Shown here one piece after another: positions 2,786 through 25,703 of a DNA stretch of 46,134 nucleotides. Source of the stretch: Pseudomonadota bacterium (GTDB lineage Bacteria > Desulfobacterota > Desulfovibrionia > Desulfovibrionales > Desulfomicrobiaceae); NCBI GenBank assembly GCA_030529235.1, contig JAUMXF010000005.1, positions 1 to 46,134 on the forward strand, written 5' to 3'. How positions within the stretch are numbered: position 1 is the first letter of the stretch; the number at the start of each line of letters is the position of its first letter. The notes beneath the pieces are model-generated. The model saw only the letters and a program-made list of their open reading frames with translations, did no database searches and was not told the DNA's origin. The translations under genes were made by a program, and so were the position numbers.

Positions 2786-4192
2786 CTAGCCGGAAACATC
2801 CGGGTTCTGAGGCATGCACAGGGTCGCGTGCAGGGCGATCTGGGCCTTAGCGAAATTTTTCCGCTCCACCACGAACTGCATGTTGGTCTGGCGCGCGGTC
2901 TGGGACACGGACAGGATGTTGATGTCGTTTTTGGCCAGTGCTCCAGCCGCCTTGGCCAGAATGCCCGGCTGTCCGATATTGGAACCAATGGCGCAGACAA
3001 TGGCCACGGGCCGGGTGCTGATGTGTTCGAACCGCTCTTCCAGATCGGCCACGAGCTCCGGCGTGCAGTCCCGCTCGTTCAGGATCATGCCGATGGTGTT
3101 GGCGTTGGTGGCCTTGCTGATGTAGGAAACCTGATGCGCGGCCAGAACCTGCAGAATACGCAGGTCAAAGCCCACCTCGCCGACCATGCGGGTGTCGTGG
3201 ATTTCCAGGCAGACCACCTTGTCCGAACCCGTGACGATCTCCACCATGGACTGTGGCGCGATGAAATCCTTGGTGATCAGAGTGCCGCTGTGGCCCGGGT
3301 CGAAGGCGTTTTTGATCCGGATGGGGATATTGTGGATTTCGAGCGGCTTGGATGCCTTGGGATGGATGGCCTCCATGCCCACGTCGGCCAGCTGGTCGGC
3401 CACGTCGAAATTGGTGTTGCAGACCGGGTGGCTCCTGTTCTCACCGATGAGTACCGGGTCCCCCGAGCACAGATGGTACTCCTTGTGGATGACGGCCTCG
3501 CTGGCTCCCATGAGCACGGCCACCTTGGAGAAAGTGACTTCGGAATAACCGCGGTCGAATTCGCGCATGATGCCTTCGGTGCCCTTGGTGTAGCCCGTGG
3601 CGAAGCAGATGGTGGAGAACGGATCGATATGTTCGAAGCTGTCCCTGATGCGTTCGTCGATGGTCAGCTGCCGGCTGTCTTCCCAGCCGCTCAGATCGAC
3701 AAAGGTGGCGTCGTAGCCCCGGTTTTGCAGGATATTGGCCGAATTGAAGGCGCTGTGCATTTCCCCCAGAGAGGCGAGCAGCTCGCGGGCCGCCAGCAGC
3801 AGGGCCTTGTGTGACACATAGCCCGAGGCCAGCACGTTATCCATGCTGCGCAGCACGTTGATGGCCAGATCGATGTGGTCGCCGATGAAATCGTTGGCCT
3901 CGTCCAGATCGAGCCCGGCCGGAACCAGCGCCTCGTTCAACTGAAACAGCCTGTCCCGCAGATCCAGCATTTTCCGCGAGTAATTCTGCTGCTCCCGGAA
4001 GAGCTGATAGATGCCGGGCTGTCCGGTCTTCTTGTGTTCCAGCAGCTCGTTGGTGATGCCGCCGTAGGCCGAAACGACATAAATCCGGCCGTACACGTCG
4101 TCAGGGTTGCGGAGAATGATATTGTCGATGATCTCCGGAAACCGGGACATGGAGGTCCCGCCGATTTTTTCGACGCGGGGTTGGGTTTTCAA
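2786..4192 (-). CDS. Aspartate kinase, ectoine-associated (Ask_Ect-like) type
   Basis: Phosphorylates L-aspartate, the first step to lysine, methionine, threonine and, in some bacteria, ectoine. I place the start at a TTG (4192-4190): it gives MKTQPRVEKIGGTSMSRF, matches the family N-terminus and has GGAGG 11 bases upstream; a longer ATG frame to 4297 adds 35 residues without family likeness. The protein has 468 residues: a kinase domain with KIGGTS and a central stretch with FATGYTKGTEG, then two ACT domains near 325-460 (VCLEIHDTRMVGEVGFD; IVCAIGSNIGQPGILAKAAG). VEKIGGTSM in place of the usual VxKFGGTS is, from memory, typical of the aspartokinases found with ectABC. No ect gene is in the window. 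It is divergent from yejA. Confidence 0.9.
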   Translation of the reverse strand: MKTQPRVEKIGGTSMSRFPEIIDNIILRNPDDVYGRIYVVSAYGGITNELLEHKKTGQPGIYQLFREQQNYSRKMLDLRDRLFQLNEALVPAGLDLDEANDFIGDHIDLAINVLRSMDNVLASGYVSHKALLLAARELLASLGEMHSAFNSANILQNRGYDATFVDLSGWEDSRQLTIDERIRDSFEHIDPFSTICFATGYTKGTEGIMREFDRGYSEVTFSKVAVLMGASEAVIHKEYHLCSGDPVLIGENRSHPVCNTNFDVADQLADVGMEAIHPKASKPLEIHNIPIRIKNAFDPGHSGTLITKDFIAPQSMVEIVTGSDKVVCLEIHDTRMVGEVGFDLRILQVLAAHQVSYISKATNANTIGMILNERDCTPELVADLEERFEHISTRPVAIVCAIGSNIGQPGILAKAAGALAKNDINILSVSQTARQTNMQFVVERKNFAKAQIALHATLCMPQNPDVSG

Positions 4193-22323: not shown

Positions 22324-23016
22324 ATGGAAAGAAAACATGTTGTGGCTCTGACCGGGGCGGGCATCAGCGCCGAGAGCGGCCTGTCCACTTTCCGGGATGA
22401 AGACGGCCTGTGGAGCAAATTCCGCGTGGAAGACGTGGCCACACCCCAGGCCTTTGCCCGCAATCCCGGCCGGGTGCTCGAATTTTACAATCAGCGCCGG
22501 CGTCAGTTGCGGGATGCCGCTCCCAACGCGGCCCATACGGCCCTTGCCCGGCTGGAGCAAGGGTACAGGGTGAGCATTGTCACCCAGAACGTGGACGACC
22601 TGCACGAAAGGGCCGGGTCGTCCAGCATTCTGCATCTGCACGGACAGCTCAGGTTGGCGTGCAGCACGCTGGACCCGGACTACGTGGTGGACATCGGCTA
22701 CGAGCCCATCGCTCTGGGCGATCTTTGCCCCGGAGGCGGACAGCTGCGTCCGGCCATCGTCTGGTTCGGCGAACCCGTGCCCATGATGGACCGCGCCCGC
22801 GAGATCGTGGCTTCGGCGGATGTGCTCATGGTCATCGGAACGTCTCTGGCCGTGTACCCGGCTGCCTTTCTGGCCCACGAGGCGCCGTCCGGCGCGTCCG
22901 TTCTGGTTGTCGATCCGAAAGCCGAACCCGGCCGGGTGGCCGGTGCCGTGGTCCATCGGGAAAAGGCCGCCCGGTGCGTGCCCCGGTTGGTGGAAGAACT
23001 GCTGCAAAAGAGGTGA
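22324..23016 (+). CDS. cobB: Sirtuin-type NAD-dependent protein deacylase, zinc-less
   Basis: Removes acyl groups from lysines using NAD+. The 230 residues show the NAD site (GAGISAESGLSTFRDEDGLW), QNVDDLHERAG and the catalytic His in HLHG (residue 106). Tyr55 and Arg58 (FYNQR) match the Y-x-x-R pair that gives SIRT5 and E. coli CobB desuccinylase activity. The four-cysteine zinc site is absent: only two cysteines lie in that region, which reads DIGYEPIALGDLCPGGGQLRP. That wording, together with FRDEDGLW, resembles Bacteroidetes sirtuins, so transfer is possible. The start (ATG 22324) is chosen where likeness begins. A tiny membrane ORF follows after three bases. Confidence 0.9.
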   Translation: MERKHVVALTGAGISAESGLSTFRDEDGLWSKFRVEDVATPQAFARNPGRVLEFYNQRRRQLRDAAPNAAHTALARLEQGYRVSIVTQNVDDLHERAGSSSILHLHGQLRLACSTLDPDYVVDIGYEPIALGDLCPGGGQLRPAIVWFGEPVPMMDRAREIVASADVLMVIGTSLAVYPAAFLAHEAPSGASVLVVDPKAEPGRVAGAVVHREKAARCVPRLVEELLQKR

Positions 23017-23019
23017 ACG

Positions 23020-23178
23020 ATGGAAAATCTGCTTTACGTGCTGCTTTTCGTGGCGGCCTGGGTACTGCTGGTCAAAATTGTCTTTCCCAGGCTCGGCATT
23101 CACGGTTGAGACCCGGAACCCGGGGGCTGCGGTCGGCAGCCCGAAGAACGTCCGGAGAATCAGGAACATCAGTCATGA
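23020..23178 (+). CDS. Small membrane protein, candidate selenoprotein (in-frame UGA)
   Basis: ATG 23020 follows the sirtuin stop by three bases, with a strong GAGGTGA. The first 29 codons encode one membrane helix (NLLYVLLFVAAWVLLVKIVF) and PRLGIHG, then TGA (23107-23109). If that TGA is read as selenocysteine, the frame continues with DPEPGGCGRQPEERPENQEH and ends at TGA 23176-23178, giving 52 residues. A hairpin with a GGUCG loop lies 14 bases after the TGA, at the distance and with the loop expected of a bacterial SECIS. From memory, small single-helix deltaproteobacterial proteins have LGVxTC...GxC at this place, so Sec would pair with the downstream Cys. If there is no recoding, it is a 29-residue protein ending at 23109. 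Confidence 0.5.
23124..23142 (+). promoter_or_regulatory. Candidate bacterial SECIS hairpin
   Basis: GGGCTGC (23124-23130), loop GGTCG (23131-23135) and GCAGCCC (23136-23142) form a 7-bp perfect stem. The loop starts 21 bases after the in-frame TGA. GGUC in the apical loop is the feature SelB recognises in the E. coli fdhF element. The bulged U of fdhF is not seen, so this is a candidate only. Confidence 0.45.
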
Positions 23179-23580
23179 TGCAGACAGCTCGGTCATGATG
23201 AGCCCCACGAAGCCGGAGGCCTGGTGCCGGAACTCCCACCCCAGATGTGCGTGGCACTCCGCGCACAGGGCGAATCTCCAGGCATAGCCGGGAAACCAGG
23301 TGAAGGCCTCGGTGAATTCTCCTTCAAAGCGGCAGCCCGGCGCGGCCGTGAAGCATGTCATTTCAAACAGAATGCCCGCCGGGTTGAACAGATTGTGCCG
23401 GTACCGGCCGTCCATGGCGATCCTGTCCCGGGTTTTGGTCACAGGCCGGGAACAGGTCCGGCACAGGAGCCAGTCCTCCGGCTCCGGAGCCTGATGCTCC
23501 TGCCGGGCGGGAGCTGGGGCGTATTCGGGATTCTCCCGGAACAGGAAATGGCGGGTCGAGTCCATGGGGGAGTGAGGCAT
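23173..23580 (-). CDS. Cereblon-like CULT-domain protein
   Basis: A stand-alone CULT domain, the thalidomide-binding fold of human cereblon. With the ATG at 23580 it has 135 residues. Zinc ligands are Cys40/Cys43 (CRTC) and Cys106/Cys109 (CAEC). The tri-tryptophan pocket is complete: Trp95 and Trp101 in WFPGYAW, Trp115 in HLGWEF, with Phe117 matching human Phe402. Asn66-Pro67 matches human Asn351-Pro352; human His378 is replaced by Phe93. An ATG at 23565 is an alternative start. It follows the GH57 gene by eight bases. Its stop overlaps that of the candidate selenoprotein in the palindrome TCATGA. Bacterial CULT proteins bind cyclic imides and uridine-like ligands in vitro; the cellular role is unknown. 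Confidence 0.9.
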   Translation of the reverse strand: MPHSPMDSTRHFLFRENPEYAPAPARQEHQAPEPEDWLLCRTCSRPVTKTRDRIAMDGRYRHNLFNPAGILFEMTCFTAAPGCRFEGEFTEAFTWFPGYAWRFALCAECHAHLGWEFRHQASGFVGLIMTELSAS

Positions 23581-23588
23581 TCGTTCGC

Positions 23589-25703
23589 TCAGTCGGGCCG
23601 GACGGCCAGCCCCAGCAACTGGCACAGCTCGGCGTGCACGTCCCGGCCGGGCAGCTCCATGACCATGTTCTGAACCTGCCAGAACCAGACGCGCAGGCCG
23701 AGCTTGCGCGCCCGCACGATGAGCCCGCTCAGGTCGTGGGCGCTCCGGGGCAGTTCCTGAGCCAGACGTACGCCGTGAGCCTCGGTTTCGCGTTCGAGCA
23801 TGGCTCGTGCGGCCTCGTTTTTTTCCAGAGTTCTCCGCAGCCAGACCACCGTGTCTTCGGACAGATTCATTTCTCCGGACAGCCAGTTCCAGCTCAGGCC
23901 GGGCAGCAGCAGGGCCAGCCTGCCCCGCGCGCGGTCTTCGGACGCGCCGTTCAGAAAGGGGGCCAGCGCCAGAGCCAGAGATGCAGACTGGCGCAGCAGG
24001 CCATCCTCATTCCGCGCGGACAGGCGCAGGCTCATTTCAGCGGCATGGCGCGCCGGCGGAGGAGCTGGTTCGGCGATCCGCATCCGGACGCTCTCTTCTT
24101 CCAGTGTGGCCGGCCAGAAAGCCTGAAGCGCCAGCTCCGGGCCTTCGGTTTGTGCCCGCAGCCGAAGGCCCGGCCAGGATATTTCGTGCGGGCCGCCGGG
24201 AGGAAAATAGAGAGCCAGGCTCCGCAGCGAAGGCCGGCGTGGATTGATCATGGTTTCCCACAGCGCCGCGCCGTCCCATTTATCGTCCACGTTGGATTGG
24301 GCCTCGGACAGGATGCGCACGAAGCCGTCCTCCACATCGGGTCCGCCGCAAGCGCGCAGCAGATCGAGCGTCCGCCGGGCCGAGGTCAGGGCGTTGAGCG
24401 GCTCCAGACCCGAAATGTCGTCGAAGAACCAGGCGCAGCTGGCGAAACTGGCCAGCGCCAGACGCTGCATGAGCAGGAGCCTGCAGGCGCTGGTTTTTTC
24501 CGCGCCAGCCAGCTTTTTCCGGCCGTGGCGGTCCAGAAAGGATTCCAGAGTCTCCGTCCCGGCCAGCGTCAGGCCGTATCCCCGCAGGGCCAGATTCGGA
24601 TCGGTGAAAAACTCCGCGCCGCGCCGGAAAAAATGTTCATCCGCGTAATACTTCAGATAATTGAGGCAGCGGCGCAGGGGCCGTCTCCAGTCCTGGGTCC
24701 AGTCCGGGTGTCCGTTCCCGGAGCAGCCGCAATGCGTTTTCCATCTTTCCAGGCCGTGGGCGCAGCTCCAGGACGTGTTTTCGTGCAGGAGGACCTCGTG
24801 TTCGGCCGGGTGCGCCGCCAGGTACGCGGCGTAATTGGTCAGGGCCAGATTGTCGCGTCCCTGCCGGGCCTGGTCCACCACATAGGCCAGAGCCATTTCG
24901 CCGAAGGGAAAATGATGGCCGTAGGATTCGCCGTCCGTGGCGATGTTCCGCAGGCCGCCGGAAAAGGAGGCCGCGAGCCTGTTCCAGAAGTTTTCCCCGT
25001 TTTCCAGCAGCCGCTCGAAGGCCACGGCCTGGGACGTGGGGCCGTGGTAGAAAAACACGGTTATGGACTTGCCTTGGGACAGGCGGACCAGATAGGGCCG
25101 CGTGGTGTCGAGGGTGTCGGCGGAAACGGGGCGGAATCCGGCTTCTCCGGGGCGGCGCACGGAGGCCGCCTGCCGGGGCGCCAGAATGGTGAAGGCTATT
25201 CCGGCGTCGGCCAGCGTTTCCAGAGTGGGCAGATCCACGGCGGTTTCGGCCAGCCACATGCCTTCGGGATCGCGGCCGAAGCGCTGCCTGAAATCCTGAA
25301 CAGCCCACTGCACTTCCAGAGTTTTGTCCAGTTCCGTGGCCAGCGGCATGATGGGATGGTGATAGACTTGGGCCAGAGCGTTGCCGTGTCCCCAGCGGGC
25401 GAGGCTTTCGGCGTCCGCCGCCAGAATGCGGGCGTAGGTTTCGGGCGCGTGCCGTTCCATCCAGGACAGGAGCGTCGGCCCGAAATTGAAGCTCATCCAG
25501 GCATAGCAGTTGATCATCTCCCGGATCAGGCCCTGACTGTCCAGCCTGCGTGCCGCGCCGAGGGGCGCGTAGCACTGCCGGGTGATGCGCGCGTTCCAGT
25601 CGTGGTCCGGTCCGGCCCCGTTTTCGGGCAGGACGTCCTCGATCCAGGGGTCGAGGCGCGGAGGCTGGTAAAAGTGGCCGTGGATGCACAGAAATCTGGT
25701 CAT
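23589..25703 (-). CDS. GH57-family glycoside hydrolase with DUF3536-like C-terminus
   Basis: Large cytoplasmic glycoside hydrolase, 704 residues, no signal peptide. The N-terminal (beta/alpha)7 barrel opens with LCIHGHFYQPPRLDPW, the GH57 motif 1, and contains MWLAETAVD, the motif 3 region with the probable catalytic Glu, and TDGESYGHHFPFGEMAL, which carries the acid Asp. The C-terminal half (from about residue 300: LHENTSWSCAHGLERWKTHCGC) matches the DUF3536-type extension. GH57 enzymes act on alpha-glucans (amylase, branching, glucanotransferase). I chose ATG 25703 because GGAG lies six bases before it. The CULT gene follows after eight bases, so the two are probably co-transcribed. Confidence 0.9.
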   Translation of the reverse strand: MTRFLCIHGHFYQPPRLDPWIEDVLPENGAGPDHDWNARITRQCYAPLGAARRLDSQGLIREMINCYAWMSFNFGPTLLSWMERHAPETYARILAADAESLARWGHGNALAQVYHHPIMPLATELDKTLEVQWAVQDFRQRFGRDPEGMWLAETAVDLPTLETLADAGIAFTILAPRQAASVRRPGEAGFRPVSADTLDTTRPYLVRLSQGKSITVFFYHGPTSQAVAFERLLENGENFWNRLAASFSGGLRNIATDGESYGHHFPFGEMALAYVVDQARQGRDNLALTNYAAYLAAHPAEHEVLLHENTSWSCAHGLERWKTHCGCSGNGHPDWTQDWRRPLRRCLNYLKYYADEHFFRRGAEFFTDPNLALRGYGLTLAGTETLESFLDRHGRKKLAGAEKTSACRLLLMQRLALASFASCAWFFDDISGLEPLNALTSARRTLDLLRACGGPDVEDGFVRILSEAQSNVDDKWDGAALWETMINPRRPSLRSLALYFPPGGPHEISWPGLRLRAQTEGPELALQAFWPATLEEESVRMRIAEPAPPPARHAAEMSLRLSARNEDGLLRQSASLALALAPFLNGASEDRARGRLALLLPGLSWNWLSGEMNLSEDTVVWLRRTLEKNEAARAMLERETEAHGVRLAQELPRSAHDLSGLIVRARKLGLRVWFWQVQNMVMELPGRDVHAELCQLLGLAVRPD

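Follow-up and report, generated by a model that had tools for sequence, protein, structure and literature searches.

Positions 23020-23178 of the window, by which we mean the whole 46,134-nucleotide stretch of DNA analysed here, very probably encode a member of an unlisted, Desulfobacterota-wide family of predicted single-span membrane micro-selenoproteins. The same in-frame UGA is present in relatives from roughly two-fifths of the phylum genomes sampled, and in the Desulfobacterota the family appears to be among the selenoproteins with the widest spread (121/297 genomes in the order, 172/395 in the phylum). That it was overlooked can be put down to a gene of only about 50 codons, of which a standard gene caller sees at most a 29-codon ORF, and to selenoprotein finders that need Cys homologues.

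A predicted selenoprotein gene behind a Sir2 gene

Read through on the plus strand, 23020-23178 gives the predicted product MENLLYVLLFVAAWVLLVKIVFPRLGIHG-U-DPEPGGCGRQPEERPENQEHQS, which consists of one N-terminal membrane helix, the in-frame TGA and a hydrophilic tail with a single Cys (Table 1). Under the standard code, translation from the ATG would stop after 29 residues at TGA 23107, while with this TGA read as selenocysteine (Sec) it would continue to 52 residues and end at TGA 23176. A preliminary description, made from the sequence alone, had pointed to a 29-codon frame with a strong ribosome-binding site, ended by TGA 23107 and followed by 22 further codons including a Cys, to a 7-bp hairpin with loop GGTCG starting 14 nt after the TGA, and to a TCATGA end that supplies the stop of a convergent gene. 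We found each of these elements in place, the loop of the hairpin beginning 21 nt past the UGA. The frame of 22 sense codons downstream of TGA 23107-23109 closes with TCA TGA (23173-23178), and this TCA is the minus-strand stop (TGA) of the convergent ORF at 23173-23625. The name "CULT" that had been attached to the convergent gene was not borne out, as Pfam gives no match to the ORF at E<=0.001. The Sir2 gene and the selenoprotein gene are probably co-transcribed.

SelB carrying Sec-tRNA-Sec binds hairpins of this type and decodes the UGA as Sec, and SelB with Sec-tRNA-Sec at the hairpin would likewise decode UGA 23107. The preliminary description had named lack of this machinery as grounds for refutation; selA, selB, selD and tRNA-Sec were sought in the genome and all are present (Table 1). 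The selD gene itself looks like an ordinary Sec-containing selD. A search of the window against Rfam returned no match, as is expected of a SECIS element.

Table 1. Features of the locus and Sec machinery genes of the same genome (C, contig)
Feature	Position	Strand	Details and basis
Selenoprotein gene (predicted)	23020-23178	+	52 residues plus stop, one Sec codon; read-through translation and homologues with the same in-frame TGA
Shine-Dalgarno sequence GAGGTGA	23010-23016	+	sequence; overlaps Sir2 stop codon 23014-23016
Start codon ATG	23020	+	sequence
Single predicted membrane helix, residues 2-24	23023-23091	+	AlphaFold2; positive charges on C-terminal side
In-frame TGA, predicted selenocysteine U30	23107-23109	+	189/190 distinct members have TGA at this column, the other TGC
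Hydrophilic tail with Cys37 (TGC 23128-23130), U-x6-C	23110-23175	+	pN/pS and family motif
SECIS hairpin (predicted)	23124-23142	+	7-bp stem GGGCTGC (23124-23130) / GCAGCCC (23136-23142), loop GGTCG (23131-23135)
True stop TGA of the selenoprotein gene (predicted)	23176-23178	+	sequence
Sir2 (NAD-dependent deacylase family) gene, upstream	22324-23016	+	PF02146, 143.6 bits; 3 nt before the ATG
Convergent ORF, shares the TCATGA end	23173-23625	-	ORF list; no Pfam match
selA	C66:7728-8825		554.5 bits
tRNA-Sec	C18:11054-11143		78.4 bits
selB	C27:14203-16092		361 bits
selD	C145:15009-15929		327 bits; one in-frame TGA

The family and the probable decoding of its UGA

Six-frame translations with stops read through were searched in 22 genomes of the same taxonomic family, and the protein was found in 16 of them at E<=6e-4 (genome G005, for example, carries member L003). 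All 16 matches span one in-frame TGA at the same column, and the aligned consensus of these relatives reads M..LLYLLL.VGVW.VLV..VFPKIGIHG-U-GPA..SCSWQPKDKDK. The order-wide count given above was obtained with a profile of 13 members; one of its 121 matched genomes (G204, locus L137) was dropped as spurious, the match being 12 residues long and lacking a helix. The phylum-wide count, obtained with a profile of 50 members, represents 115 of 246 genera, a spread beyond what the preliminary description foresaw. The DNA was read at 224 loci, which correspond to 190 distinct members and to 134 representatives of less than 70% identity. Family members are 44-80 residues long, with the UGA 5-8 residues past the helix and the consensus [KR]-h-G-h-x-[GT]-U-x(4-6)-C around Sec. 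An SD-like motif lies upstream of 97 of the 108 representatives that start with M, and the final stops of the full set of representatives are mixed (TAA 50, TAG 43, TGA 41). The pattern LG[VI]xx[CU]...C given in the preliminary description came near the real consensus, but the Cys versions it anticipated are nearly absent rather than common. No tblastn match to a phylum-type member was found in plasmid records. In one large genus of the order search (g12), almost no genome carries the family although most have selA, which indicates that the loss is lineage-specific and does not go with loss of Sec.

Of the 190 distinct members, 189 have TGA at the Sec column and one has TGC (Cys), with no instance of TAA or TAG; the stops of neighbouring long ORFs are TAA in 267 cases, TGA in 241 and TAG in 155 (TGA 36%, 241/663). 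Several members first listed without a stop (L206-L211) had matches that ended short of the column, and their DNA has TGA there. As the search profile carried Cys at this position and would favour Cys forms, their near absence is real within the Desulfobacterota. Past the UGA, all 134 representatives have 13 or more open codons in frame 0, compared with 103 and 71 representatives in the other two frames. In 50 disjoint close pairs, pN/pS was 0.218 before and 0.354 after the UGA, and pS fell from 0.443 to 0.275, a decrease that fits RNA structure in this region. Tail length varies by whole codons, as in KDKDKS, KDKDKDKS and KDKDKDKDKS. The frame past the TGA is thus under purifying selection; the preliminary description would have been undone by homologues that lacked conservation beyond the TGA and had no Cys at that column, and what we found was conservation past it, with TGA at the column in all members except the one with Cys.

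This sole Cys form found, L081 (minus strand 3436-3627 of genome G213), has a TGC codon in a 64-residue open frame and retains the second Cys, as seen in LGIKNCGSLPGSCKW. It has no stem of at least 4 bp and a fold z of +0.93, and its host genome has selA, selB, selD and tRNA-Sec. At the other extreme, two members from one genus (L225 and L231; g200 of the phylum search) have a double UGA, corresponding to U30 and U56/57. The second UGA falls near the C-terminus in the motif PxPTUDGP[ST]C, and each UGA is followed by its own hairpin at 18-23 nt (7, 7, 8 and 9 bp).

The hairpin recurs throughout the family. A stem of at least 5 bp is present in 125 of 134 representatives, compared to 43 after codon shuffling, and one of at least 6 bp in 99, compared to 17. 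The bacterial SECIS consensus places G in the first two positions of the loop and spaces the loop 16-37 nt from the UGA (PMC13188914). In our set, 124 of 132 representatives have this G, and the apical loop, typically about 16-27 nt past the UGA, lies within 16-37 nt in 129 of 132. Across the family, the hairpin satisfies the published bacterial SECIS rules, which bears out the reading given in the preliminary description. Stem positions show compensating changes in fixed registers (at one pair, A-T 19, G-C 9, G-T 2, C-G 1 and T-G 1 among 32 members); since the members used for these pair counts were picked for having the stem, the shuffled control is the fair comparison. Relative to synonymous-codon variants drawn from local codon usage, the sequence after the UGA folds more stably (mean z -1.56, n=133), with a value of -0.06 for the N-terminal control. 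The z of the locus in the window is -0.47, not clearly more stable than its synonymous variants, because its GC-rich tail folds easily regardless. Taken alone, therefore, the hairpin in the window could be chance, while the family-wide signal is far beyond it.

The family also follows the Sec machinery across genomes. In the order, selA was found in 115 of 120 family-positive and 132 of 177 family-negative genomes (odds ratio 7.8, p 4.6e-7), and in the phylum in 165 of 172 and 191 of 223, respectively (odds ratio 3.9, p 6e-4), the counts having been taken by hand from the listed genomes and the statistics ignoring relatedness. The family-positive genomes without detected selA, 5 in the order search and 7 in the phylum search, are MAG-like; tRNA-Sec is present in 11 of these 12, and selB in the remaining one (G072, 82% complete).

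These data allow two other readings of the TGA to be weighed against Sec. If it were an ordinary stop, the gene would encode a 29-residue single-helix peptide with a conserved 3' RNA element, in keeping with a hairpin that lies past the stop and with a 29-residue frame that is complete in itself, behind a good ribosome-binding site. We consider this highly improbable given that only TGA is used at the column, never TAA or TAG, that the single TGC opens a 64-residue Cys form, and that the stretch beyond the TGA shows protein-like evolution, changes length by whole codons and is open in frame 0 only. Slightly less probable again is readthrough of the UGA by a near-cognate tRNA (such as that for Trp) with no Sec involved. 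UGA is leaky in bacteria, but leakiness would not call for a SECIS-rule hairpin after nearly every UGA that is lost in the Cys form, nor for the co-occurrence with selA (relatedness being ignored in both odds ratios), and the one replacement seen is Cys rather than Trp. Decoding of the UGA as Sec is the reading we retain in what follows.

Relation to known selenoproteins

Bacterial selenoproteins with a SECIS are a kind already known, and members of the present family share with them the in-frame UGA, the G of the SECIS loop, the standard distance, the machinery and a Sec near Cys. A Sec site is usually proved by Cys homologues, and in this family these are almost absent (L081 only). What is new is the combination of a single membrane span, a length of about 50 residues and practically exclusive use of Sec. 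In outline, the predicted protein is also like selenoproteins K and S, which have a single membrane helix and a disordered cytoplasmic tail that carries Sec; this is a likeness of architecture, for which we claim no homology. Selenoproteins K and S are eukaryotic ER proteins that have their SECIS in the 3'UTR and Sec near the C-terminus.

By the inventories compared, the family is new. Against Pfam and NCBIfam (June 2026), no member scored over a curated cut-off, and the best E values (0.0049-0.1) were scattered over unrelated membrane-helix models. Two NCBIfam models of small selenoproteins were the main candidates to exclude. NF041197 (dual CXXC motif small selenoprotein OS_HP3, or protein DW) is likewise short, a 53-position model, and finds nothing in the window's genome at E<=1. 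NF049953 (selenoprotein DG) likewise describes a small uncharacterised protein, with the motif GUxG, but is a 172-position ribbon protein; at the locus it has no match, its only one in the genome being a chance match of 10.9 bits at another site. None of 119 bacterial selenoprotein families catalogued in 2026 fits by description or motif (PMC13188914), and the open-access main texts on selenoprotein mining that we compared do not describe the family (PMC1914089, PMC12013277, PMC13188914, PMC9312934, PMC8318568). For Desulfomicrobium orale, the main text of the 2025 deep-Sep study gives six known selenoproteins, not itemised there, and no new ones, and its authors state that families without Cys homologues were filtered out (PMC12013277). 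If our reading is right, a class of small Sec-only proteins is absent from the catalogues, and it would be well suited to finding out what selenium can do and sulfur cannot.

Topology, possible role and gene context

AlphaFold2 predicts one helix in the product, with pLDDT of about 90 over residues 1-20 and of 48-58 in the tail. Across the 134 representatives, residues 1-6 contain on average 0.25 K+R and the 12 residues that precede Sec 2.08, and the C-terminal flank of the helix has more K+R than the N-terminal one in 127 representatives and fewer in none. By the positive-inside rule, the Sec-bearing tail is probably cytoplasmic, with an N-out/C-in orientation in the inner membrane. A Cys follows Sec as U-x4-6-C in 115 of 134 representatives and as U-x(4-9)-C in 120; in the other 14 there is no Cys close by. 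Subgroups without the usual post-Sec Cys comprise L105, L129, L143 and L151 as well as L117, L123, L146 and L147; the latter four end in GGCGG[NK], so that the C-terminus may supply the Cys. The codon of the downstream Cys lies wholly inside the hairpin in 60 of 117 cases and partly in 23, so that 83 of the 117 have at least part of it in the 5' arm; in 28 it lies upstream of and outside the hairpin. RNA constraint may account for part of the Cys conservation, and only for part.

Anchoring in the inner membrane in this orientation would place the selenol on the cytoplasmic face, a few residues from the membrane, where Sec and the nearby Cys (U-x4-6-C) could form a reversible selenenyl-sulfide. 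The protein might then act as a membrane-tethered redox factor or as a factor that handles soft metals or selenium. We give a free redox role about an even chance. The main alternative is a small accessory subunit of a larger respiratory or biosynthetic membrane complex, in which Sec would bind a metal centre and not serve as a free redox carrier. Small single-helix subunits are common in such complexes, and the fact that Cys almost never replaces Sec would suit this role; there is, however, no constant neighbour gene, the gene upstream being Sir2, PurC, FabI, GltX or an FmdB-type zinc ribbon depending on the clade, and we hold a subunit role to be possible, at clearly less than even weight. 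A selenium switch is unlikely. In such a switch, low selenium would yield the 29-residue helix and high selenium the full protein, both with roles of their own, and since the UGA stands right behind a complete membrane helix both products could insert, but a short product is expected from any inefficient decoding of Sec. The same placement of the UGA makes a selenium sensor conceivable within a wider, tentative view of the family as a phylum-wide micro-selenoprotein with a job beyond the reach of Cys (selenium-specific redox chemistry or handling), in which Sec is held in 189 of 190 members and doubled in one genus.

Upstream of the gene there is usually a housekeeping gene in the same direction, which differs from clade to clade: Sir2 in Desulfomicrobium, and elsewhere PurC (31 loci), FabI (13), an FmdB-type zinc ribbon (13) or GltX (9). 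Because the neighbours differ by clade, the context marks orthology within clades and not function. We accordingly rejected operon context as a guide to function, as no partner gene is named by it, and we discarded a family-wide role for the convergent gene on account of the same variation among neighbours.

In many Desulfovibrionales loci, a tRNA-Ser gene lies about 200-300 nt downstream. Same-strand tRNA-Ser genes at ~190-320 nt past the gene start were seen in several families of the order (L015, L033, L036, L058-L060, L063-L065, L069, L071, L073, L081, L082, L085, L090, L109 and L116), and downstream of L081 there are two. In distant clades, an FmdB-type zinc-ribbon gene ends less than 700 nt upstream (L178, L179, L189, L194, L198, L204, L212, L220, L227, L230, L233, L261 and L265); FmdB-like proteins are listed as a selenoprotein family in a 2026 review (PMC13188914).
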